Of a stretch of DNA of 43,765 nucleotides, positions 21,591-34,716 are shown in pieces; the first letter of the stretch is position 1, and each line of letters opens with the position of its first letter. Origin of the DNA: Bacteroidota bacterium (GTDB taxonomy: Bacteria; Bacteroidota; Ignavibacteria; UBA10030; UBA8401); the NCBI GenBank assembly GCA_027622375.1, contig JAQCAB010000013.1, positions 1 to 43,765 of the forward strand, given 5' to 3'. The position numbers were made by a program, and so were the translations under genes. Under the pieces are notes generated by a model that did not search any database, had not been told where the DNA came from, and saw only the letters and a program-made list of their open reading frames with translations.

Positions 21591-23879
21591 ATGAAAATAA
21601 AATTAATTACTTATTTATTGGTGTGTATCTCACTTTTTAGCAACAATTTATTTGCTTTATCAGACACTTTAAGAGTAAAGCAAGATACATTATTCATTCA
21701 AAGATCAAACCAAACTTCAATTTCCGAAGATGAAGTTGCGGTAGATTCACTTTTAGAATTGGCTCGAGAATATTATAACGATGCAGTTGATTCTGAAAAT
21801 GAGAATGATTTAAATCGAAGTCAAAAATTATTTGAGTCGGCAATTAATATTTTGAACGACATTAATAATATTGATGACCAATCGCAAAACAAAGAATATC
21901 TCGATCTTGTAAATACAGTTATTGAAGCTTACAACCGTGATATTTCTCTTATCGATAAACTTCCAGTTGATGCACCAGCATATGTCTTAAGAGTAAAACT
22001 GAGTGAAGAAATTGAGCGGACGACGAATCCAACTGTACCAAATATTTCTAATGAACTTTCTACAAGTTCTGTTCCTTTAGAAGTTAATGAATATGTCAAT
22101 AGAAGTATTTCATATTTCATGACAAAAGGAAGAGAAGTTTTTGAAAAATGGATTTTCCGTTCTGGAAAATATTATCCAATGATGGAAAAAATATTTGAAG
22201 AGGAAGGGACGCCAAGAGAGATAATATACCTTTCGATGGTTGAAAGCGGATTAAATCCAAACGCAAGATCATGGGCTAGTGCAGTTGGAATGTGGCAATT
22301 TATTAAAGGAACTGGTTCACTTTACGGTTTAAGGTCAAATTATTGGTACGATGAAAGAAGAGATATTGAAAAATCAACACGAGCTGCTGCAAGACATTTA
22401 AATGATTTATATTCTAAATATAATGATTGGTATTTAGCTTTGGGTGCCTATAATGCAGGTGGTGGAAGAATAAATCGCGGAATTCGTATAAGTGGTTCTA
22501 AAAATTATTGGGAAATGAGAAAATATTTACCACGAGAAACTAGAAATTATGTTCCGCAATATATTGCAGTTACAATGATGGCGATGAAGCCAGAAATGTT
22601 TGGATTTCGAAATGTTGAAAAAGATTTACCGTTACAGTATGAAATTGTTACAATTGAAGATTGCGTTGATTTAAGTATTATTGCAGCTTGCGTAGGTTCA
22701 ACTCTTGCGGAAATTAAAAGTTTAAATCCGGAATTGTTAAGATGGTGCACGCCTCCAAATTTTCCGAACTATCAACTTAAAATTCCAATTGGTACAAAAG
22801 AAAAATTTTTAGCCGAATACCAATTAATTCCCGATGATAAAAAATTAAATTATGTTGTTCACAAAGTTAAAAGGGGAGAAACAGTTTCGAATATCGCAAG
22901 AAAATATGGACTTGTATCTTCTGTTATAATTGATGCGAATGGAATTTCAAAAAAAACGCGACTTTCAGTTGGTCGTGAACTTGCGATACCAATTCCAAAA
23001 AATGGATCAATTGTTCATAATGCAGTTGAAACAGAAATCGACAAACCTTCGATAGCTAAAACTATAAAACCCAAAAAGAAAACTACATTAAAGGATCGTG
23101 AAAAAATTTATGCAGCCGATGATAAAGTAAAAGTTCGATATAAAATTAAAAAGGGAGATTCTTTAGGAGAGATTGCAGAATTGTTTGATGTTAGAATGAG
23201 TGATTTAAGAAATTGGAACGATTTATCATACAGAAATAAAATTTTTGTAGGAACTTCTTTGGAAATTTGGGTACCGCAAAGTCAGAATAAATATTATAAA
23301 GATTTAGCATCAAAAGGAATTGAAAAAGAAATTAGTTCTATAAAAAATTCTTCATCAACAAATAATAAAACTCACAGAGTTAAACGTGGTGAAAATTTAG
23401 AATTAATTGCTGATAAATACGACTTGACCGTTGATGAATTGAAAGAACTAAATAATTTGAAAACAGACAAAATAATGTCTGGAACAAATCTTAAAATTAA
23501 ACAAGTTGTTGTAGAAAAGAATAAATCAAAACAAGCTCAACCGAAACAAGTTAAAAAAATAATTGCTTTGAAAAAGAACCAAGTTCAGATTAACCACATT
23601 GTAAAACTAGGTGAGACGCTTGGATTAATTGCAAGAAGATACAATGTTGAAGTTGGTGAAATTCAAAAATGGAATAATATTGCTTCTCAAAAAATTTTAT
23701 TAGCAGAAAGATTAAAAATTATTTTACCAAAATCCAAAGTAAAAACTCACACAGTTAAAAGAGGTGAATCACTTTGGTCAATTGCGAAAAAATTCAATGT
23801 TCCATTTAATGATTTGCAACAATGGAATAATTCGAAGAAAAACACGAACGTTGGAGATTTGATAATTATAATTCTTTAA
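21591..23879 (+). CDS. Membrane-bound lytic transglycosylase D-like protein with five LysM domains
   Basis: A 762-residue exported peptidoglycan-cleaving enzyme. Residues 1-22 are a signal peptide ([22 protein letters not shown]). A poorly conserved helical region follows, then a family-1 lytic transglycosylase (SLT) domain near residues 195-335: catalytic E218 in MVESGLNP, then [14 protein letters not shown] and [13 protein letters not shown]. Five LysM peptidoglycan-binding modules follow near 422-468, 515-561, 594-637, 668-712 and 719-762, more than the two of E. coli MltD. The ATG is 11 nt after the tRNA-Ser 3' end, leaving no room for its own promoter. The linkers are Lys-rich. It is the first protein gene of the envelope run. 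Confidence 0.9.
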
Positions 23880-23890
23880 AAGTATTTCCT

Positions 23891-26020
23891 GTGAATTCAA
23901 AAAATAATTTATCAAAAATATTTCTATTCACAGTTTTAATTCCATTTACATTATTATCTCAACAATATAACGAGAAAGACCAAAAAGCTACTTCAATTGG
24001 TCGTATTGGTCTTTCAGTTTCTTCAAACGGAGTAATCGGAAATTCTTTTCGTGGTCCATATGTTACAAAAGGTGAAAGTTCTTGTGAATATCCGATTGGT
24101 TCTGGAATTGAGCATTTATTTGATGGTGGAATTTGGATTGGCGCAAATGTTCGTGGACAAAAATTAGTTTCAACTTCCGCAGCGGGTGATGATGCAAACG
24201 GTTATGATGCAGGCAACGCAGGTTACGAATTTACCTCAACTAAATTATTAATTGAAAGATCCACAATTGAAAATGCATCAAATTATTCCCCACTTGCAAT
24301 TAGCCATCAAGATTTTGTTGCTGAATATTCTGATAGTTCTACAAGAATTCCAAATGGTGGACCCATAATTGATCAACATACAACACCTTTAAAAATAACT
24401 ATCAAACAAGAATCTTATGCTTGGAATTTTCCATTTGCAGATTATTTTGTTTTACTTAATTATAAAATCACAAATAAAAATTTAGATACTTTAAAAGATT
24501 TGTTTGTCGGACTTTGGGGAGATTTTATTGTTCGGAATGTAAAAATTACACCACCTCGAGGAACTGAATTTTTTAGTCATTCAGCTTTTGGTTACGATGA
24601 TGCTTCAAACTATTTTTATGCATACGATTATAATGGTGATCCGGGATTTACTGATAGCTACGTTGCTGTAAAAGTTATTGGTGGTGATTGGCGTGGTGGT
24701 TTAATCCAACCAAAAGCATTTTCACTTTGGTCATTAGATTTAAAAAAATATTTTACAGGAAGAGAAGTTCCATTTGATTCATTAAGAAGTTTCATCCAAT
24801 TTTGGGGATATAGAAGTACAGATTTGAATTTAGGTTCACCAAAAAATGATGCTGAACGATATTTAAAAATGAGTTCTTCAATTAATAAAACAATTTACGA
24901 TCAAGAAGTAAAAGATAAACCATCAAATTTACTTTCATTCATTTCAATTGGACCGATTCCTGAATTAGCTCCGAATGAAACAATGAGTCTTGTATTCGGA
25001 ATTGTTGCAGCTAAAAAATTTGGAGATCGTCCAAGCAGTGTTAATGATTCTACTTCTCGGATAACTTTGAGTGAAAATATTCAATGGGCGCAGCGAGCTT
25101 ATAATGGTGAAGACTCAAATGGAAATGGAAAACTTGATGATGGAGAAGATTACAACAACAATAATAAACTCGATAGATATCGTTTACCCGAGCCACCATC
25201 TCCTCCAAAAATTAAAATAATCCCTTCAAATAAAAAAGTTACAATTTATTGGGATAAGAATTCAGAAAATAGTATTGATCCAATTTCTCGCTTAAAAGAT
25301 TTTGAGGGTTATAAAATTTATGGATCTGTTTTAACAAATTTATCTTCCCAAAGTGCTTCAGATAAATTAGTTTTACTTGCTGAAATTGATTCAATCGGAA
25401 ATTCAGTTGGTATAAATAATGGTTTTAATTCAAAAGGGGCATTCACAAAATATTCTGAACCAGTAAAATTTGAAAATGACACAACAAAATATTTTTATAG
25501 TTTTGTTTCCGAGAATTTATTAAATGGTTGGCAATATAGTTTTAGTGTAACTTCATTTGATGAAGGGGATGAAATTCGTGGCATTCCTTCTCTTGAAACA
25601 AGTCGTGAACAAAATTTATTGCGTGTTTATCCCGGTGTTGTCGCAAATAATAATTTTGAAAGTGGTGAACCATATGTTTATCCAAATCCGTTTTACGGAA
25701 ATGCAAAATGGGATGGTAAAACAGAACGTGAAAAGAAAATTTATTTTGCTAACCTTCCACTTAATTCTGAGGTAAAAATTTATACTTCCTCTGGCAGAAT
25801 TGTTGATTCGTTCAATCATAATGGTTCAAATTATCGTGGAGAAGATGTTCGTTGGTTTCAACAATCTGGAAAAGAAAATGTGCAACTATCTGGCGGTGAA
25901 CATGCTTGGGATTTAATTTCAAAATATGATCAAAGTTTGGCTACAGGTTTGTATATTTACACTGTAAAAGATTTAGAAACTGGTAAAATTCAAACAGGAA
26001 AATTTGTTATTATTAAATAA
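23891..26020 (+). CDS. Secreted protein with calcium-loop-like repeat, FN3-like region and T9SS-type C-terminal domain
   Basis: A 709-residue exported protein. The GTG start, 11 nt after the previous stop, gives a signal peptide (FLFTVLIPFTLLSQ). Residues about 30-400 are a large domain I cannot name, with many aromatic and Gly residues (for example GPYVTKGESSCEYP, HLFDGGIWIGANV). Near 408-428 is an EF-hand or dockerin-like run DSNGNGKLDDGEDYNNNNK, a likely calcium loop. A fibronectin-III-like region follows (KKVTIYWDKNSEN, FEGYKIYGS). The last 85 residues start with PYVYPNPFYG and end GLYIYTVKDLETGKIQTGKF, the pattern of a T9SS sorting domain. It is probably carried to the surface by the type IX system. 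Function unknown. Confidence 0.7.
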   Translation: MNSKNNLSKIFLFTVLIPFTLLSQQYNEKDQKATSIGRIGLSVSSNGVIGNSFRGPYVTKGESSCEYPIGSGIEHLFDGGIWIGANVRGQKLVSTSAAGDDANGYDAGNAGYEFTSTKLLIERSTIENASNYSPLAISHQDFVAEYSDSSTRIPNGGPIIDQHTTPLKITIKQESYAWNFPFADYFVLLNYKITNKNLDTLKDLFVGLWGDFIVRNVKITPPRGTEFFSHSAFGYDDASNYFYAYDYNGDPGFTDSYVAVKVIGGDWRGGLIQPKAFSLWSLDLKKYFTGREVPFDSLRSFIQFWGYRSTDLNLGSPKNDAERYLKMSSSINKTIYDQEVKDKPSNLLSFISIGPIPELAPNETMSLVFGIVAAKKFGDRPSSVNDSTSRITLSENIQWAQRAYNGEDSNGNGKLDDGEDYNNNNKLDRYRLPEPPSPPKIKIIPSNKKVTIYWDKNSENSIDPISRLKDFEGYKIYGSVLTNLSSQSASDKLVLLAEIDSIGNSVGINNGFNSKGAFTKYSEPVKFENDTTKYFYSFVSENLLNGWQYSFSVTSFDEGDEIRGIPSLETSREQNLLRVYPGVVANNNFESGEPYVYPNPFYGNAKWDGKTEREKKIYFANLPLNSEVKIYTSSGRIVDSFNHNGSNYRGEDVRWFQQSGKENVQLSGGEHAWDLISKYDQSLATGLYIYTVKDLETGKIQTGKFVIIK

Positions 26021-26036
26021 TTAAAAAGGAGAAGCA

Positions 26037-28082
26037 ATGAGAACTAAAATTACAATTTTTATTTTAACAATAATTTCTTTTGTAAATATTGAAGCACAAT
26101 ATTCAAAACGGAGTATAAAACAAATCCAATTTGTTTCTGATAGTTTGCTGAACTTAACTCCTTCCCAAGATGCGAGTCCATATAAAGACAGCACAGTTTG
26201 GGTCAAAGGTGTAGTTGTTACACCAGTTCGTGTTGAAGGTGGAAGACATCAATTTTATACTGGTGATCGTTTCAGATTTGTTATGAAAAATCCATCTGAA
26301 ACCGACTATAATTATATATCAGTAGTTGCCACAGACTCAGTATGGTTTAGAGATAATATTGGAATTGATTTACTTGTTCCGGGCGATTCGGTGGAAGTAT
26401 TAGGAGTAGTTACTGAATACAGAGGTTTAACACAACTTGAAGTTATAAAACAAGCTGGTTGTTTAAATTTACTTGGAACTTCAACTGCAAATTTAAATTC
26501 AACAACAGTTGGTTTGGATCAATTTTTTAATCAAACAACAATTCTTAAAAAAACTTCTGAAAAATATGAAAGTGGGTTTATAAAACTTTTAAATTTAACA
26601 GTCATTAGTACCAACGTTGCAGAATTTTCTGTTGCAGATAGTTTAGGAAATAAAATTACTGTTGATGATCAGTCAAATTTAATTTATGGAACAATTCCAC
26701 CACCAGCAGGAACAAAAATTGCAAGTGTTCAAGGATTTATTTTTACAAATTCAGCGAGTGCTTGGACAATAAATCCCCGAAGAACAAGTGACTATACAAT
26801 TTCTGGTGCAGCACCAACAATAATAAATGTAACAAGATCAGATTCTTTTCCAACTTCAACTTCAGCTGTTACAATTAAATCAAAAATTTATATTACTGGT
26901 TTAACAATTACATCAGCGGAGCTTCATTATAAAATTCAAAACGAATCACCAAATAAAATAATTATGTCAACAAGTGGTGATTCAATTTATTCTGGAATAA
27001 TTCCCGCTTCATCAAAAGACACAGCATTTGTTTCATATTATATTTTAGCAAAAGGATCAAATACAAACATTACAACTTTCCCAACAGATACAGTACGAGA
27101 AAAATTATTTTATTTAACTTTAAATCGTCCACTTACAATTCAAGATGTTCAATTCAATCCATTTGGTGGAGGATCAAGTTATACAAATATGAAATTAACT
27201 TTAAAAGGGATTGCCACAACTGATAGAAAAATTTATGGTGCAATCAACATACAGAATGGAAAAGGGAAGTGGAGTGGAATCCGCATTCGTGCTTCAAATG
27301 ATTCTTTGATAAAGCGTGGTGATGAAGTTCAAGCATCGGGGCTTATTCGCGAAATAAATGGTTTAACAATTCTTGACTCAGCAAAAGTGACAATTTTGTC
27401 ATCTAATAACCCTTCGCCAGAGGCAACAAAAGTTAAAACATCGATTGTTTTGACTGGCTCAAATGATGCCGAACAATATGAATCGGTTTTGATAAAATTG
27501 GACAGCGTTTATGTCGTTAATTTAAATGAAGATTCGCCGAGCAATCAAAATTTTGGTGAGTTTGGAATTAGTGAGAATAAAAATAATAGTGTTGGACTTC
27601 GTATTGATGATTATAGTACAAAGTTGCCATTTACAAATGATACTGCCCGAGCTGCCGGGAAAGGAAAAATTCAACTTAAAAAAGGAGATTATTTCGCTTC
27701 GGTGATTGCACCACTTGATTATTCATTTAATAACTTTAAATTAATTCCGCGTGATAGTGCTGATTTTGTTGGATATAAAACTACAACTTTTGTAATACTT
27801 GAAAATAATTTTATACCTAAAATTTTAAAACTTGATCAAAATTTTCCAAATCCATTTAATCCTTCAACAACAATCAGATATCATTTGCCATTAAAAGGTG
27901 AAGTAAAAATTACAATTCATAATTTATTGGGACAAAATGTTCAAGAATTAGTGAACTTAATTCAAGAAGCTGGTAGTTACGAAGTTAAATTTAATGCAAA
28001 CAAGTTGCCAAGTGGAATTTATTTTGTAAAACTAGATCAGAATAATAAAATCTTGACTAAAAAAATTCTGTTCTTAAAATAA
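26037..28082 (+). CDS. Secreted OB-fold protein with T9SS sorting domain
   Basis: A 681-residue exported protein with a clear SD (AAGGAG, 26026-26031, 5 nt before the ATG) and a signal peptide (MRTKITIFILTIISFVNIEAQ). Two segments look like OB-fold modules of the DUF5689/YhcR kind: VWVKGVVVTPVRVEGGRHQF (near residue 55) and LKGIATTDRKIYGAINIQNG (near residue 390), the latter followed by GDEVQASGLIREINGLTIL. A third similar strand set begins near 465 (NDAEQYESVLIKLDSV). The C-terminus is a textbook Ignavibacteria-style T9SS domain: LDQNFPNPFNPSTTIRYHLP, then LPSGIYFVKL and KILFLK. Such OB modules are often found in extracellular nucleases, but no nuclease motif is visible here. Confidence 0.78.
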   Translation: MRTKITIFILTIISFVNIEAQYSKRSIKQIQFVSDSLLNLTPSQDASPYKDSTVWVKGVVVTPVRVEGGRHQFYTGDRFRFVMKNPSETDYNYISVVATDSVWFRDNIGIDLLVPGDSVEVLGVVTEYRGLTQLEVIKQAGCLNLLGTSTANLNSTTVGLDQFFNQTTILKKTSEKYESGFIKLLNLTVISTNVAEFSVADSLGNKITVDDQSNLIYGTIPPPAGTKIASVQGFIFTNSASAWTINPRRTSDYTISGAAPTIINVTRSDSFPTSTSAVTIKSKIYITGLTITSAELHYKIQNESPNKIIMSTSGDSIYSGIIPASSKDTAFVSYYILAKGSNTNITTFPTDTVREKLFYLTLNRPLTIQDVQFNPFGGGSSYTNMKLTLKGIATTDRKIYGAINIQNGKGKWSGIRIRASNDSLIKRGDEVQASGLIREINGLTILDSAKVTILSSNNPSPEATKVKTSIVLTGSNDAEQYESVLIKLDSVYVVNLNEDSPSNQNFGEFGISENKNNSVGLRIDDYSTKLPFTNDTARAAGKGKIQLKKGDYFASVIAPLDYSFNNFKLIPRDSADFVGYKTTTFVILENNFIPKILKLDQNFPNPFNPSTTIRYHLPLKGEVKITIHNLLGQNVQELVNLIQEAGSYEVKFNANKLPSGIYFVKLDQNNKILTKKILFLK

Positions 28083-28092
28083 ATTTTTAAAA

Positions 28093-29730
28093 TTGATTAA
28101 TAAAAAAAATACTTGGAAGGCTTTTTCCATTTTATTTTTTTTAAGTTGTCAGCAACCAATTGATATTGAATTAAAAAAAAACAATCCGCCACAAACACAA
28201 CTTTGGGCTGATTCAATTTCAAAAATTGTTACAAGTACAATAAAACTTTATTGGTCTGGTGCAGATCCAGATGGATTTGTAAAAGGCTATTTTTTAACTA
28301 CAAATTCTAAAAATTGGACTTGGACTACTTCAACTGAATCAACTTTAACTTTAATGTTGGGGAATAAATCTTTAGACACATCAAATATTAAAGTTAGCGC
28401 AGCTGATAATGAGGGGAATGGAATTTGGGATTCTAAAATTGAATTTGGAAATATTTTATTTGGAAGCGAGCCATTTGTTGATGCCAATAAAAATGGAATT
28501 TATGATTTCGGAGAATCCTTTACAGATATTGGTTTAATTGATGAAACCCCTGCACAAATTAAATTAGTTGTCAAAAATTCTCCACCATCAGTTAGTTTTA
28601 ATATTTCATCAACAATTCCCCAAATAACTTTACCAGTTGCAACATTTGATTTTAAAGGAACTGATCCTGATGGAGATGCAACTATCAAAAATTATTTTGT
28701 TGCATTAAATGATACTTTAAATTGGACTCAACTTCCAACCGCAACTTCGTTAATTACAATAGTTGCAGATTTAAGTGATACATCAAAAAATATTGTCACT
28801 GCAAAAATATTAATTGGTAAAAAACTTGAAGATTTAGGAATTACAATTCCAAATTTTAAATTAAACAATAATAACAGATTGTACATTTATTGCCAAGATG
28901 GAACTGGAGCAAAAAGTAAAATTAAAAATATGCCTGATTCATCAAAAACATGGTATGTTCAAAAACCAAAAGGAAGAAAAAAATTATTATTGGTCGATGA
29001 ATTTGGTATTTCTTCCCCCGATCCAGATCAAGTTTATTATAATATTTTAAATTTAAGTTTAGATAAAAATGGAAATACTTTTTCAGATTATGATGTAGTC
29101 GAATTATCAACAAACCCGATTCCAAAAACAATTGCCAATCTTATGTTAGTTGAAACTTTTAAAATGTATAAAATTGTTTTTTGGTATGGCAAAGTTGTAA
29201 ATTTTGATTTAGCTCAACAAATAATCCCTGAATATGTTAATAAAGGAGGAAATGTACTTTTATCAACTGGTTTCCAAAATTTAAGTGTAGCTGGAATTGA
29301 TCCATCACAACTTAGTTTGGATTTTGCACCAATTGATAGTTTGATTACTTATTATAAAAGTGATACAATTTCTATAAGTGGATTTATCCCGCGAGTTTAT
29401 TCTCAATCTAAAATATTAGCAGTGGATTCAACTTCTCAAAATAAATTTCCCCAACTTATTTTTGATCGAACAGCATTATTCGGAACTTATGCTTTGCAAA
29501 ATGGATTTAATGAAAATGTTCTTTATAGATTTGATTCTGCAAAAGCAACAAATCCAAATAATTCTGAGGAAAAATGGATTGGCAAACCAGCTGTAATTAC
29601 ACAATCTCAAAATAAAAAAATAATATTTTCTTCAATCCCGCTGCATTTGTGTAATTCACTTGATTCTCAAAATAATCCGAGATTAAAATTATTTTTTGAA
29701 AGAATTTTTAAGGATGAATTTGGACAATAA
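28093..29730 (+). CDS. Exported lipoprotein-like protein with Ig/FN3-like repeats, unknown function
   Basis: A 545-residue protein that starts at TTG (28093), 10 nt after the upstream stop. The N-terminus KAFSILFFLSCQQP suggests a signal peptide ending in a lipid-modified Cys, though the lipobox FLSC is not ideal. Two related repeats are visible: WSGADPDGFVKGYFLT (near residue 55) and KGTDPDGDATIKNYFVALND (near residue 195), the D-P-D-G pattern of Ig/FN3-like surface domains. A D-x-N-x-N-G loop (DANKNGIYDFGESF, near residue 130) may bind calcium. From residue about 290 a different domain starts with RKKLLLVDEFG and contains YVNKGGNVLLSTG, similar in flavour to class-I glutaminase-amidotransferase-like folds. 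No function is assigned. Confidence 0.65.
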   Translation: MINKKNTWKAFSILFFLSCQQPIDIELKKNNPPQTQLWADSISKIVTSTIKLYWSGADPDGFVKGYFLTTNSKNWTWTTSTESTLTLMLGNKSLDTSNIKVSAADNEGNGIWDSKIEFGNILFGSEPFVDANKNGIYDFGESFTDIGLIDETPAQIKLVVKNSPPSVSFNISSTIPQITLPVATFDFKGTDPDGDATIKNYFVALNDTLNWTQLPTATSLITIVADLSDTSKNIVTAKILIGKKLEDLGITIPNFKLNNNNRLYIYCQDGTGAKSKIKNMPDSSKTWYVQKPKGRKKLLLVDEFGISSPDPDQVYYNILNLSLDKNGNTFSDYDVVELSTNPIPKTIANLMLVETFKMYKIVFWYGKVVNFDLAQQIIPEYVNKGGNVLLSTGFQNLSVAGIDPSQLSLDFAPIDSLITYYKSDTISISGFIPRVYSQSKILAVDSTSQNKFPQLIFDRTALFGTYALQNGFNENVLYRFDSAKATNPNNSEEKWIGKPAVITQSQNKKIIFSSIPLHLCNSLDSQNNPRLKLFFERIFKDEFGQ

Positions 29731-32518
29731 AATTATCAAAATATTATTTTTCGGATTTATTTTTGTGATAAATATTTTTTCACAAGAAAAAGGGAAACTC
29801 GAAGGTAAAGTTTTTGATTCTAAAACTAACGAACCATTAATTGGTGTTTCAATTAAATTAAAAGGAACTTATTACGGAGCAGCAACTAATATTGATGGAA
29901 GTTTTTCAATTCAAAATATAAATGTTGGCGAATATATAATCGAAGCTAACTCAATTGGTTATAAAACTTCGCAATATACTGGAATAAAAATTTTTGCGGA
30001 TAAATCTACTTCGCTTGATATAAAATTAATTGAAACAATTTTATCACTTGATAAAGAAGTTGTTGTTATCGGCGAAAAACCTCTTTTTGATATTGAAGAA
30101 GCATCAAGCATTCGCACAATTACAGCGGATGAAATTCGCGCAGCACCAGTTATGGGAATTCAGGATATTGTTTCAAAGCAAGTTGGTGTAACAAAAACTG
30201 CAGAAGGAATTTATATTCGTGGCGCGAGAAGTTATGAAACCAGTTATTTGGTTGATGGAGTTTCGGCAAAAGATCCACTCGCTGGCACAGGTTTTGGTAT
30301 TGAAGTAAATCCACTTTCGATGAAGGAAATTGAAGTTATTACTGGAGGAATTGGCGCTGAATATAGTTCAACAGCTGGTGTAATTTCTGTTACAACTTTA
30401 AGTGGAACAGATGAATTTCAATTTTCATCATCCTATAAAAGAGATAATATAAATTCTAATTCAAAAAATTTATCCAATTTTAATCAAGATCAGATCGATT
30501 TAAGTTTTAGCGGGCCAATTTTTTCAGATAAATTTACATTTTATTCTTCATTTTCAGGATTTGTTTCGGATGAATTTACACAATCACCAGCGAATCAATT
30601 ATTTTCTTCAATCGCGAATGGAAAAAATTTTGCCCCACGACAAGATAATAGATTGAATGGTTTAATAAAATTAACTTTTCAAGAATCGGGCTCGAAATAT
30701 GAAGTAACTTATCGCAGATCTATAAAAATAAATCAGAATACAAGAATGTTGCAAATGGGAGGCAATGATGTTGTCTTAAGTCCAGGTTATCAATATGCAT
30801 TTGCACTACAACCTGATAATGCTAACACATATACACATGATGCAAATTTATTAAGTTTTAAATATTCAGTTTCGATTGACGCGAAAAGTTTTTTTGATTT
30901 TCAAGTAAGTAGATTGTTCACAAGACTCAGAGCTGATGCAAATGGAAGAGAATTTCGCCCAGATTCATTTACAACAATTTTTGATCCGCAAAGTATAATT
31001 ACAAATCCAATTAGTTATTGGAAGTATTCACTACAAGATAGTGTGATGTATGTAATTATAAGCGATCCAACAATTGCAGGTTTATACAATAATGGTGGTA
31101 TAGCAACTTTGTGGCACGATCACTTTGCAGAAGAAATAACTTTAAAAGGAGATTACTCGCTTCAACTAAATAACGAAAATAAATTAAAAACTGGAGTTGA
31201 AATAAAATTTCAAGAATATCAATGGATTGATGTTAACAGACCTTGGATTGGTGCGCCAATAAAAGTTGGAGATCTTTCCCGCTCACTTGGTGAATCATTT
31301 GATATTTGGCATGTGTGGCCATCTCAAGGTGGCGCTTATATTCAAGACCAAATTAATTACAACGGATTAATTGCATTTATCGGTTTGAGATTTCAATATT
31401 GGATGCCTGGAAAATTTATAGAAAATGTTGTTGGTGATTCTGAAAGTATTTCTAAAAAAATATTAACAGATAAAATTGTAGATGAATTTTATGCTTCAAC
31501 TTTTTCTATTTTTGATCGAAGAATAAAAGGGAGATTAATGCCTCGCTTAAAAGTTTCATTCCCTGTTAGCGATAATCAAGTTTTATTTTTTAATTATGGA
31601 CATTCTGTTGATTGGCCAAATGCTTATCAAGTTTATTCTGGTTTGGATATAACTCGAATTGATCGATCACCACTTTCAAGGATTGGAAATCCCGCGCTTG
31701 AACCCGAAACAACTGTTGAATATGAGATAGGTTTAAAAAATCAATTCAATATTAATGATGTTCTAACTTTAACTGCTTTTAGTAAAGATAAATTTGATTA
31801 CGTAGTCAGAAGGTATTTGTATGAACTTGATAAAACAACTTATATAAATGAAGATTACGCCAGAATAAATGGTATTGAATTTACATATTTGAGAAGATTT
31901 TCTCAAAATTGGCAAACTACTTTTATGTTTTCATATCAAATTGCAAAAGGGAAAAGTAATTCTGCTGAAGCTTCTTTTTTTAGATTTACTGATGAACAAA
32001 CTACTAAAGAAAAATATTTAGCATGGGATAGACCATTACAAATTAGATTGACTTCAAATTTAAGATTAGATGATGAATTCGAATTCCCAGAATTTTTACA
32101 ATTTTTATACTCCACTAGAATTTTTACTCAAGCAAACTTTCAATCTGGCAAGCGTTACACGCCGTATATCAAAACTGGTTATGATTATAATTTAAAAAGA
32201 GATTTGTATCGAGAAGATTTAAGTCGCGAATATCAATCAATCGGAGAAAATTGGTTTTGGGTTGATTTAAGTATTCAAAAAAATTTGGAATTCTTAAAAA
32301 GAGAAATAATGTTTTCTTTGGAGGTGACAAATCTTTTTAACAATAAAAATTCTACAATTATAAATCCATTAACAGGAAGAGCATACGAGTTGGGAGATTT
32401 AACACCATTTCGTGATCCAACAAAACCTCATCCTGAAGATACAGGTTTGCCACCATTTGATCCTGCAAGATATTTAGAACAGCGTCATATTGTTTTTGGA
32501 TTGACTTTAAAATTATAA
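29714..32518 (+). CDS. TonB-dependent outer-membrane receptor with carboxypeptidase-like N-terminal domain
   Basis: A 934-residue outer-membrane barrel. The ATG at 29714 is preferred over an upstream in-frame start at 29696, because it gives a standard signal peptide (residues 1-24, ending FSQ). It overlaps the preceding gene by 17 nt. A carboxypeptidase-regulatory-like beta-sandwich lies at 28-105 (GKVFDSKTNEPLIGVSIKLK, IGYKTSQYTGI). The plug follows at about 130-228 (IYIRGARSYETSYLVDGVSA; GGIGAEYSSTAGVISVTT), then a 22-strand-size barrel to the end (RHIVFGLTLKL). It resembles SusC-type receptors, but no SusD partner is next to it. The cargo is unknown; polymer, peptide or metal chelate uptake, or an export role, all remain open. 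Confidence 0.88.
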   Translation: MNLDNKIIKILFFGFIFVINIFSQEKGKLEGKVFDSKTNEPLIGVSIKLKGTYYGAATNIDGSFSIQNINVGEYIIEANSIGYKTSQYTGIKIFADKSTSLDIKLIETILSLDKEVVVIGEKPLFDIEEASSIRTITADEIRAAPVMGIQDIVSKQVGVTKTAEGIYIRGARSYETSYLVDGVSAKDPLAGTGFGIEVNPLSMKEIEVITGGIGAEYSSTAGVISVTTLSGTDEFQFSSSYKRDNINSNSKNLSNFNQDQIDLSFSGPIFSDKFTFYSSFSGFVSDEFTQSPANQLFSSIANGKNFAPRQDNRLNGLIKLTFQESGSKYEVTYRRSIKINQNTRMLQMGGNDVVLSPGYQYAFALQPDNANTYTHDANLLSFKYSVSIDAKSFFDFQVSRLFTRLRADANGREFRPDSFTTIFDPQSIITNPISYWKYSLQDSVMYVIISDPTIAGLYNNGGIATLWHDHFAEEITLKGDYSLQLNNENKLKTGVEIKFQEYQWIDVNRPWIGAPIKVGDLSRSLGESFDIWHVWPSQGGAYIQDQINYNGLIAFIGLRFQYWMPGKFIENVVGDSESISKKILTDKIVDEFYASTFSIFDRRIKGRLMPRLKVSFPVSDNQVLFFNYGHSVDWPNAYQVYSGLDITRIDRSPLSRIGNPALEPETTVEYEIGLKNQFNINDVLTLTAFSKDKFDYVVRRYLYELDKTTYINEDYARINGIEFTYLRRFSQNWQTTFMFSYQIAKGKSNSAEASFFRFTDEQTTKEKYLAWDRPLQIRLTSNLRLDDEFEFPEFLQFLYSTRIFTQANFQSGKRYTPYIKTGYDYNLKRDLYREDLSREYQSIGENWFWVDLSIQKNLEFLKREIMFSLEVTNLFNNKNSTIINPLTGRAYELGDLTPFRDPTKPHPEDTGLPPFDPARYLEQRHIVFGLTLKL

Positions 32519-33487
32519 ATGAAAAAATATTTTTTAATAATTTTTATTTTCTTTCAAAATATTTTAAATGCTCAAAATATTTTCCCAATTTTTGGAAGTC
32601 AAAGAACAGGGACTTCTGCATTTACATTTTTGCAAATTAGTGCTTCGCCTCGCGGATTGGCAATGAGTGATGCATTTAATTCTTTAAGTGATGACGCATC
32701 GTCACTTCATTACAATCCTGCAAGAGCGGTTTTATTTCACAGAAGTCAAACTATGGTTTCGCACGGATTATGGTTTGCCGGTTTACAACATAATTACTCT
32801 GCATTTATTTATAAATATTCTGAGAATGAAGCAATTGGGCTTGCGATAAATTCATTAATGTCAGAACAAATGGAAAAAAGAACCGAATTTTTGCCTGAAG
32901 GAACAGGCGAAAAATTTATTTTTAATGATTTCTCTTTGGCTTTAACTTTCTCAAAAAGATTAACTGATCAATTTAGTTTTGGAATTACAAGCCGTTACAT
33001 AACTGAAACTTTGGCTGAATATAAAATGGATAATTTGCTTTTTGATTTGGGAATTTCGTATGATCTTGGAAATGATAAATCGCAATTTGCAATTACTTAT
33101 TCAAACTTTGGTGGCTCATCAAAACCAAAGGGAACAAATAAAAACTCTGAAAAAGAATTTGAAGAATTTTTGCCTCCATCAATTTTTGCAATTTCGTTTG
33201 CTAATAAATTGATAAAGGAAGATGATTATAATTTAATTACAGTTGTGCAATTAAATCATCCTAATGATAATTCAGAAAATTTTGCAATTGGTGCAGAGCT
33301 TGAAATTCATAAGATGTTTTATTTACGCAGCGGTTTTAGAATAAATTATAAAGAGCAAAATTTTCCATCTTTTGGAGTTGGATTTGTAATTCCGTATGAA
33401 ATATTTTTTGGCAAATTTGATTATGGGGTTGCAAAATATAACGAGCTTGGTTTAACACATAACTTTTCATTAAATATTATTTTGTGA
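32519..33487 (+). CDS. PorV/PorQ-like outer-membrane beta-barrel protein
   Basis: A 322-residue exported protein with signal peptide MKKYFLIIFIFFQNILNAQ. The early segment FTFLQISASPRGLAMSDAFN, followed by SLSDDASSLHYNPA, is typical of PorV/PorQ and UPF0164 proteins: FadL-like barrels, some of which shuttle T9SS cargo to the attachment machine. The rest shows alternating beta-strand pattern and ends NELGLTHNFSLNIIL, with a terminal hydrophobic strand. The ATG directly follows the receptor stop with no gap, and its TGA overlaps the next GTG start. Its presence beside T9SS-tagged genes supports a surface-assembly role, but a lipid-transport barrel is also possible. Confidence 0.75.
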   Translation: MKKYFLIIFIFFQNILNAQNIFPIFGSQRTGTSAFTFLQISASPRGLAMSDAFNSLSDDASSLHYNPARAVLFHRSQTMVSHGLWFAGLQHNYSAFIYKYSENEAIGLAINSLMSEQMEKRTEFLPEGTGEKFIFNDFSLALTFSKRLTDQFSFGITSRYITETLAEYKMDNLLFDLGISYDLGNDKSQFAITYSNFGGSSKPKGTNKNSEKEFEEFLPPSIFAISFANKLIKEDDYNLITVVQLNHPNDNSENFAIGAELEIHKMFYLRSGFRINYKEQNFPSFGVGFVIPYEIFFGKFDYGVAKYNELGLTHNFSLNIIL

Positions 33488-34716
33488 AAAAAGCAATTCT
33501 AAAATACATTTTTATAATTCCGATTTTTATTTTTGGTTGTGATTCAATGCTCGGCATTAAAGAACCAAATATTGCGATTGAATTTCCTGAGCTTCCACAA
33601 ACTGATTTGAAGTCAATTGAGTTTATACAATTATTACCTGTCTGGACGGGATTTAATCAACCTGAAGATGTATTAATTGGATTTGATGATTTAGTTTATA
33701 TTGCTGATACAAAAAATAATAGAGTTCTTCAGCTTGATGTAAATGGAAAAATTTTAGGATCAATAAATATTCCTGAACCAACTTCAATCGCGCAAGATCG
33801 GAGATTAGATTTATTGGTAATTGGAAAATATGATTCAACATTTGGAGCAATAAAATTAAAATTATCTTGTTTGTACAGAATTAAACTAGTAAAAAATAAT
33901 CATCAACTTTCAAATTCAACTGCGCAACCTGTCATAATTCATCCCGGTTATGTTCTTGGTAGAAATCTTAAAACAAGTGATACTTCAGTTTCATTTTCTG
34001 GTGTGGCTGTCTTGAGTGATAATCAATATTTTATTTCTCGAAGAGGAAATGAAAATTTATCAATCACGCAAGCTGGTGGTCCAGATAATAATGTACTTTG
34101 GTTTGATAAAAATGATAAATTAGTAACTCCACTAACTGCATATTTAAATCCACTCGGTAGTGGAAAAGCATCAAGTTTTGGAATTACAAATATTGCAACT
34201 TATGCAACACCACCACAACGCTCAAATGTGGATGAGCGAAAACATTTTTTAATCACATTAAATGGTGAAACAAATTTTCGGGTTCAAGGAATGCGATACT
34301 CATCAGGTAGAGAAGATGTTGCGTTTATGCCAGATCCTCAACTTGAAAGCATTGATACAACAATTGGTAAAAGATTTTTGTACGATTCTGATCCAACTGA
34401 TGGATTATTAAAATCTGGCTTTCAAAATCCCGAAGAAATTATTTATACTGCTGATAGAGGTTATTTAGTAGTTGTAGATAGCGGAACAGATAGTTTGTAT
34501 CTTTTTACTTCAAGTGGAGTTGAAGGGATTTTGCCCCCGACATATTCAACTGAAAGGAAAAATATTTTGGTCTCTTTTGGTGGATTTGGTAGCGGAAACA
34601 AACAATTTAACAATCCTATGGGAATTGCATATTTTCAATCAGATAGAATTTTTTATGTTGCAGATACAGGCAATAACAGAATTGTGAGATTTAAATTATC
34701 AACGGATTTTAAATAA
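33484..34716 (+). CDS. NHL-repeat lipoprotein
   Basis: A 410-residue protein starting at GTG, with a 4-nt GTGA overlap with the upstream stop. A good lipobox, FIFGC (Cys near residue 19), marks it as a lipoprotein. NHL-type beta-propeller blades are visible at FNQPEDVLIGFDDLVYIADT with KNNRVLQLD (residues about 57-85) and again at the end, FNNPMGIAYF with YVADTGNNRIVRF. A middle blade-like piece is TADRGYLVVVDSGTDSLYLF. NHL propellers are binding scaffolds. It ends the envelope run. The 67-nt gap after it holds only a weak A/T hairpin and a poor promoter candidate for ctpA. Confidence 0.78.
   Translation: MKKAILKYIFIIPIFIFGCDSMLGIKEPNIAIEFPELPQTDLKSIEFIQLLPVWTGFNQPEDVLIGFDDLVYIADTKNNRVLQLDVNGKILGSINIPEPTSIAQDRRLDLLVIGKYDSTFGAIKLKLSCLYRIKLVKNNHQLSNSTAQPVIIHPGYVLGRNLKTSDTSVSFSGVAVLSDNQYFISRRGNENLSITQAGGPDNNVLWFDKNDKLVTPLTAYLNPLGSGKASSFGITNIATYATPPQRSNVDERKHFLITLNGETNFRVQGMRYSSGREDVAFMPDPQLESIDTTIGKRFLYDSDPTDGLLKSGFQNPEEIIYTADRGYLVVVDSGTDSLYLFTSSGVEGILPPTYSTERKNILVSFGGFGSGNKQFNNPMGIAYFQSDRIFYVADTGNNRIVRFKLSTDFK

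Follow-up and report, generated by a model that had tools for sequence, protein, structure and literature searches.

Do six adjacent genes for exported proteins in an ignavibacterial genome encode a single surface machine, and what might that machine handle? The genes lie in the window analysed here, the whole 43,765-nucleotide contig JAQCAB010000013.1 (forward strand) of the Bacteroidota bacterium assembly GCA_027622375.1 (GTDB class Ignavibacteria, UBA10030, UBA8401), which is one of the 48 contigs (C14) of a nearly complete 1.73 Mb genome. An earlier note, made from the letters of the window, had singled out the block at positions 23891-34716 as a candidate undescribed locus for surface assembly or uptake; we indeed found no published description of it, subscription papers and preprints lying outside the search. 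Comparison of the sequences makes it near certain that the six genes are a real unit with deep conservation, and the block probably serves receptor-based uptake. More tentatively, and at somewhat less than an even chance, we propose that the products form one surface uptake complex delivered by the type IX secretion system (T9SS), most likely for extracellular nucleic acid.

A six-gene unit conserved across phyla

All six open reading frames (ORFs) are on the + strand; the first two intergenic gaps measure 16 and 10 bp, and the later genes overlap or abut (0 bp), a spacing that fits the expectation for one operon and bears out the tight coupling of genes for exported products described in the earlier note. 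They encode, in this order, P709 (23891-26020), a surface protein with a T9SS tail; P681 (26037-28082), a protein with a T9SS type A tail; the lipoprotein LP545 (28093-29730); a TonB-dependent receptor (TBDR; 29696-32518, with a likely ATG start at 29714); PORV (32519-33487), a FadL-type barrel of the PorV family and the proposed dedicated carrier; and an NHL beta-propeller lipoprotein (33484-34716; PF01436).

Searched with six family profiles, 60 of the 120 loci fetched show exactly the order P709-P681-LP545-TBDR-PORV-NHL, and these loci span Ignavibacteria, Flavobacteriales, Rhodothermales, Balneolales (Balneola), Marinimicrobia (Neomarinimicrobiota) and KSB1. The loci form two sets with few genomes in common. 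For the first, 149 genomes of the class were searched for the receptor and LP545 (the latter present in 93), and 40 loci were picked for family diversity among the good receptor matches, so that the 28 of them with the exact order do not represent a frequency. Of the other 12, one has P681 in two pieces, two have no P681, one is truncated where its contig ends, and eight belong to a single family whose receptor and LP545 genes are unlinked, with none of the remaining block members in view. The second set consists of the 80 loci kept when named genomes were scanned with the P709 profile; 32 have the exact order and 48 show less, many of the latter on short contigs. In line with the expectation of the earlier note, the genes are thus not scattered in most relatives, and the receptor has no other constant partner.

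The pairing of P709 with LP545 is particularly strict. Full-length P709 occurs in 49 of 158 genomes of the phylum and a strong LP545 match in the same 49, and in 47 of these the two genes have the same order and strand and lie 2.1-3.7 kb apart, with room for P681 between them; in one of the two exceptions both genes are near contig starts. These counts leave out 11 partial matches among the 60 genomes hit by the P709 profile (that in G003 being a broken fragment) and two of the 51 genomes with LP545 matches, G086 (8.6e-10, partial) and G224 (4.6e-6). An apparent loss of PORV at one locus (L064) was rejected as an artefact of ORF calling, the gene being intact in another frame.

In some Bacteroidia the operon is split. 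We sampled 16 genomes with P709, in 11 of which P709 stands apart from LP545, while four have no PORV-NHL behind the receptor and one has the block whole. All 16 possess one LP545 and one PORV orthologue of 250-345 bits, and 14 possess a TBDR orthologue of 835-968 bits (no receptor match was found in G268 and G277), as against none above 367 bits in 13 genomes without P709. Retention of the parts after dispersal of the operon argues for shared function, not for shared transcription alone, and together with the common gene order it sustains the view of the earlier note that the six act as one set.

A PorV-family barrel with a proposed cargo class of its own

The labels that the note had given to the receptor, the PorV/PorQ-like barrel and the NHL lipoprotein all stand, domain searches exceeding the respective cut-offs. 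PORV scores 151.6 bits against the PorV/PorQ family NF033709 (cut-off 90) and stays below the cut-offs of the PorV, PorQ and PorV2 equivalogs (58.7, 80.6 and 43 bits; cut-offs 250, 220 and 325). Its sole PDB match is F. johnsoniae PorV (E 5.7e-19). In a tree of PorV proteins the 22 block PORVs form a clade of their own (support 0.67); the deep nodes are poorly supported, so the tree neither shows nor excludes monophyly of the block PORVs with those of the cassettes described below.

Eight PorV-family genes in the window genome exceed the family cut-off. Three are the canonical PorV (276.2 bits, beside PorU), PorQ (240.9 bits) and a PorV2-like gene, and each of the other five is located just downstream of a TonB-dependent receptor. 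In four of these five, the gene between receptor and PorV encodes a protein of 1109-1198 residues with a P709-like Fn3 domain and tail. The genome thus has four cassettes of TBDR, long T9SS cargo and PorV (L084 on C40, L085 on C10, L087 and L088 on C17), two of which then carry ordinary type A cargo genes. The same linkage recurs in six relatives, where 32 of 57 PorV-family genes have a same-strand TBDR upstream within 8.5 kb, compared with a mean of 1.3 and a maximum of 7 in 2000 runs of random placement that treated the contigs as one merged length per genome. Cassette membership in these relatives goes with receptor size, 28 of 46 receptors of at least 860 residues being members vs 4 of 78 shorter ones. 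The paralogous cassettes go beyond the earlier note, as do the phosphodiesterase neighbours considered in the next section, which point to a possible ligand.

The note had assigned T9SS sorting domains to two of the block proteins. This is clear for P681, whose tail scores 46 bits against the type A sorting domain TIGR04183 (cut-off 23); the tail of P709 (residues 595-709; 25673-26017) is present and divergent, its 19.4 bits placing it below the same cut-off. A tail model built from P709 orthologues only gave 35-65 bits with all 24 cassette cargos (4 from the window genome and 20 from five of the six relatives), which score at most 28 bits with a P681-tail model. Conversely, 38 other T9SS tails of the window genome gave 31-132 bits with the P681-tail model and at most 17 with the P709-tail model; several of these tails are on partial ORFs, duplicates were counted once, and two low rows (8 bits each) are not among the 38. 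One own-genome tail over the cut-off (L230) scored 11 bits in this test. The type B domain TIGR04131 itself found no match. A distinct tail class, present in 24 of 24 cargos, therefore accompanies a dedicated PorV paralogue and a receptor, and the PorV-type paralogue is likely, judging from the sequences, to be a dedicated carrier for P709-type cargo.

Such an arrangement would differ from both established modes of T9SS cargo delivery. According to the available part of the source (PMC12618676), a single PorV handles every type A tail, and type B cargos have cognate PorP/SprF carriers encoded downstream. Block PORV shares the family of the general PorV but, besides its sub-threshold equivalog scores, is tied to one cargo and a receptor. 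In pairing a separate tail class with a cognate carrier gene downstream of the cargo gene, the arrangement recalls the type B systems, as far as that source describes them; unlike in these, the carrier is of the PorV family, the tail is divergent and type A-like, and the cassette includes a TonB-dependent receptor. By analogy, the cassettes may follow type B logic with parts of the type A system.

Two ways of working had been put forward in the earlier note, namely capture of a ligand for the receptor or export of the T9SS proteins by the pair of barrels. They need not exclude each other, PORV being carrier-like and the TBDR a separate receptor-like subunit. Export by the barrel pair is unsupported as written, since canonical PorU, PorV and PorQ are already encoded in the genome. 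On contig C8 of the same genome (L083:2-8070), the genes for PorU and the canonical PorV stand in a row with that for an inactivated, T9SS-dependent M6 metalloprotease-like protein.

Candidate ligand and competing explanations

The case for nucleic acid starts from P681. Its residues ~384-577 (27186-27767), preceded by an Ig-like domain, align with three DUF5689 domains in hhalign (probability 98.1, E 7.6e-14), while PF18942 (DUF5689) exceeds its cut-off in none of the P681 proteins scanned. The region further resembles the N-terminal stretch of an EEP-domain (nuclease-like) protein of solved structure (PDB 9sf8, E 8.6e-6); P681 also has a sub-threshold ExeM/NucH score of 40.4 bits and contains the OB-fold PF01336 in 6 of 21 orthologues. 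Together with the Ig/Fn3 domains of LP545 (see below), this region substantiates the OB-fold, calcium-loop and Ig-like labels of the earlier note.

Of the 112 P709 loci, a set that includes the window, 35 have a T9SS-tailed protein of the phospholipase D (PLD) or DNase I-like family flanking the block, vs 1 of 69 control loci with such a protein; the single control case is a PLD-family protein with a T9SS tail and two HKD motifs, encoded at a distance from the block in the window's own genome (C6:7000-9500, L226). In Flavobacteriales and Marinimicrobia the DNase I-like neighbour immediately precedes the block, and in three Ignavibacteria it lies downstream; PLD-family neighbours are downstream in many Ignavibacteria and beside the block in Balneolales. 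The motifs that we take to be catalytic are kept throughout, both HKD motifs in all 16 PLD proteins read (of 19 at block loci) and GDxN and SDH in all 14 DNase I-like proteins read (of 16). The presence of two unrelated kinds of phosphodiesterase at the same locus suggests a polymer with phosphodiester bonds, in the simplest case DNA or RNA; combined with the likeness of the P681 region to extracellular nucleases, it makes nucleic acid the likeliest ligand.

A parallel is offered by Riemerella anatipestifer. There, two adjacent genes (RA0C_RS04920/RS04915), one for a DUF5689 protein and the other for an outer-membrane protein with a carboxypeptidase regulatory domain, are each indispensable for DNA transformation, according to the available part of the source (PMC8459023). 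Mutants in either of two TonB genes also show inhibited transformation, one of them without an iron defect (PMC8383284, likewise in part). As in the block, a DUF5689-type exported protein adjoins an outer-membrane protein with such a regulatory domain; unlike in the block, no P709, LP545, PORV or NHL is reported beside them in that part of the source, and we liken the two loci by domain content alone.

The complex that we envisage would be built round the TonB-dependent receptor. P709 and P681 would be exported via the T9SS, with PORV, not the general PorV, collecting P709, which would then remain at the receptor. The two lipoproteins, LP545 and NHL, may sit beside the barrels on the cell surface, in the position that SusD occupies in SusCD pairs. 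The assembled complex would bind an extracellular polymer, most likely nucleic acid, and the receptor would import the polymer or its fragments with energy supplied through TonB.

Several observations weigh against this proposal. The window itself has no nuclease next to the block, the upstream neighbour being an SLT/LysM gene and the downstream one an S41 peptidase gene, and no PLD or DNase I-like neighbour is in view at 77 of the 112 P709 loci, many of them on short contigs. Both families also contain enzymes that act on lipids and other phosphodiesters. The predicted mutarotase-like fold of P709 would fit a glycan as ligand just as well, and the CBM_56 matches in 9 of 21 P681 orthologues suit a glycan equally. 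Finally, the cassette cargos are homologous to P709 in their Fn3 domain and tail, and the link between tail and PorV may thus reflect joint descent of cargo, carrier and receptor from a single ancestral cassette, not recognition. Nucleic acid is our best single guess and the weakest part of the proposal, falling clearly short of an even chance.

The glycan possibility deserves particular attention, as the block could be a SusCD-like system for another ligand (glycan or peptide), in which P709 would bind carbohydrate, the receptor would import oligosaccharides and the phosphodiesterases would be incidental; we judge this possible and on the unlikely side. Structure prediction, proposed for P709 and LP545 in the earlier note, gave P709 an N-terminal supersandwich domain (residues ~25-432; 23963-25186) and an Fn3-like domain (residues ~441-580) ahead of the tail, in a model with a mean predicted local distance difference test score (pLDDT) of 75.5, computed from 22 sequences. 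The N-domain matches the N-domains of glycoside hydrolases GH94, GH116 and GH15 (VIA Z 18-19, 3-4 A, 250-280 residues), whence the predicted galactose-mutarotase-like fold; Foldseek matches of the whole P709 and LP545 models had low template-modelling scores, and the fold calls rest on VIA re-alignment. None of 22 P709 orthologues matches a Pfam family, and a PDB sequence search with P709 gave no significant match. In GH94 and GH116 the supersandwich fold is followed by an (alpha/alpha)6 catalytic domain. The latter is absent from P709, which has 709 residues in all, and no glycoside hydrolase was matched among the flanking genes scanned. The receptor, with CarboxypepD_reg at residues 36-123, Plug at 135-227 (43.8 bits; cut-off 23.9) and a barrel behind it (68.5 bits; cut-off 27), is encoded in one operon with surface lipoproteins, as in SusC/SusD (RagA/RagB), and shows N-terminal similarity to SusC/RagA. 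That similarity (TIGR04056, 62.9 bits) is, however, far under the cut-off of 368, and no SusD family occurs among the domain matches of the nine genes scanned at the locus, in agreement with the earlier note, no genome-wide search having been made. SusCD pairs are many and variable, whereas the block is single-copy, is kept as a unit across phyla and adds a T9SS cargo and a PorV-family carrier; its receptor orthologues are 40-45% identical over their full length, with a mean column identity of 61%.

A single-copy, core-like distribution would also suit a machine for assembly or anchoring, in which PORV, the TBDR and the lipoproteins would together serve as a canopy-like scaffold comparable to BamG and BamH, aiding export or folding of surface proteins, with a receptor that is no transporter. 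We consider this unlikely. The Bacteroidota BAM complex combines a FadL-type barrel with surface lipoproteins, according to the available part of PMC12611786, and T9SS tails are bound by PorV-type proteins, according to that of PMC10994853. This likeness made us try PORV as a BamG, an identity dropped for want of a match to the BamG model NF053685 (cut-off 250) at E <= 0.1; nor is the BamH fold (DNRLRE) matched by LP545 or NHL, and the block operon contains no BamA or BamD. Moreover, the receptor retains its Plug domain over the cut-off, the genome has its own canonical T9SS carriers, and the full-length P709-LP545 pair is lacking in 109 of the 158 phylum genomes, which speaks against a general need of the outer membrane. 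It would be simpler still to see the products as co-transcribed surface proteins without a common complex, gene order reflecting shared regulation only. Two T9SS cargos of different tail type do share the operon, and physical contact among the products is our reading of the sequences; yet the parts are co-retained in gene content after the operon has split, P709 and LP545 co-occur perfectly, and the TBDR-cargo-PorV arrangement is repeated as paralogous cassettes, all of which makes mere co-transcription very improbable.

If the proposed uptake complex exists, an outer-membrane machine of deep conservation, neither named nor functionally described, is spread across several phyla, TonB-dependent uptake and T9SS secretion are joined in one cassette, and PorV paralogues act as dedicated carriers, against the view of one PorV for all type A cargo. 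Were the ligand DNA, the block would bear on DNA uptake by Bacteroidota without a pilus, for which a genetic screen found two essential surface genes and, in the available part of the source, no mechanism (PMC8459023). A bolder version, which we regard as distinctly unlikely, would make the block the apparatus by which the Fibrobacterota-Chlorobiota-Bacteroidota group imports DNA across the outer membrane. It would be a pore assembled through the T9SS and powered by TonB that carries DNA to the periplasm for natural transformation in bacteria lacking a competence pilus, and its PorV-type carrier would define a third cargo-carrier class of the T9SS.

The lipoproteins and minor observations

Both lipoproteins begin with lipobox-type N-termini, FFLSC and FIFGC, recognised by eye. 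LP545 matches no Pfam or NCBIfam family. Its model (pLDDT 80.3) predicts Ig/Fn3 domains at residues ~30-290 and, at residues ~295-545, a C-domain resembling class I glutamine amidotransferase (GATase), ThuA and IFT52 (VIA Z 12-13 over ~180-216 residues). The lipobox C19 is the only invariant cysteine among 22 aligned orthologues; the catalytic cysteine of class I glutamine amidotransferases is not conserved, and the fold alone matches. A SusD-like lid was considered for LP545 and set aside in view of this predicted fold, no SusD being among the fold matches listed. C19 is likewise invariant in 22 orthologues of the NHL lipoprotein, whose repeats score 50.8 bits against PF01436 (cut-off 20).

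In one family LP545 is longer (~880-900 aa), with a Ycf48-like propeller inserted in the GATase-like domain (L034:7781-10477), and P681 is missing; the LP545 match at L035 shows the same gap. Fusion with P681 was rejected as an explanation of the extra part, which is the propeller insertion. In one genus with unlinked receptor and LP545, the LP545 gene directly follows or overlaps a comF-like gene, as seen by eye (L049:10171-12449, L054:8786-11007). This proximity was not used as evidence, being confined to two genomes of that genus (the neighbour at L051 is another protein); a motif scan for ComF found none at other loci, with a pattern that also missed L054 itself.

The SLT/LysM gene upstream (21591-23879), which encodes a lytic transglycosylase carrying five LysM repeats, stops 11 bp short of P709. 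Its relatives occupy the same place only in families of the window's own order, so it does not belong to the unit. On the other side of the block, the gene for the S41 peptidase begins 67 bp downstream of NHL. Elsewhere in the genome, a gene on contig C30 scores 48.9 bits with the BamG model, below the cut-off of 250. In four other genomes (G106:C19, G130:C74, G043:C9 and G086:C5), a shorter P709-like protein (~600 aa) and a weak LP545-like one (~500 aa) are encoded within about 10 kb of each other, and these pairs perhaps represent a second, smaller version of the block.

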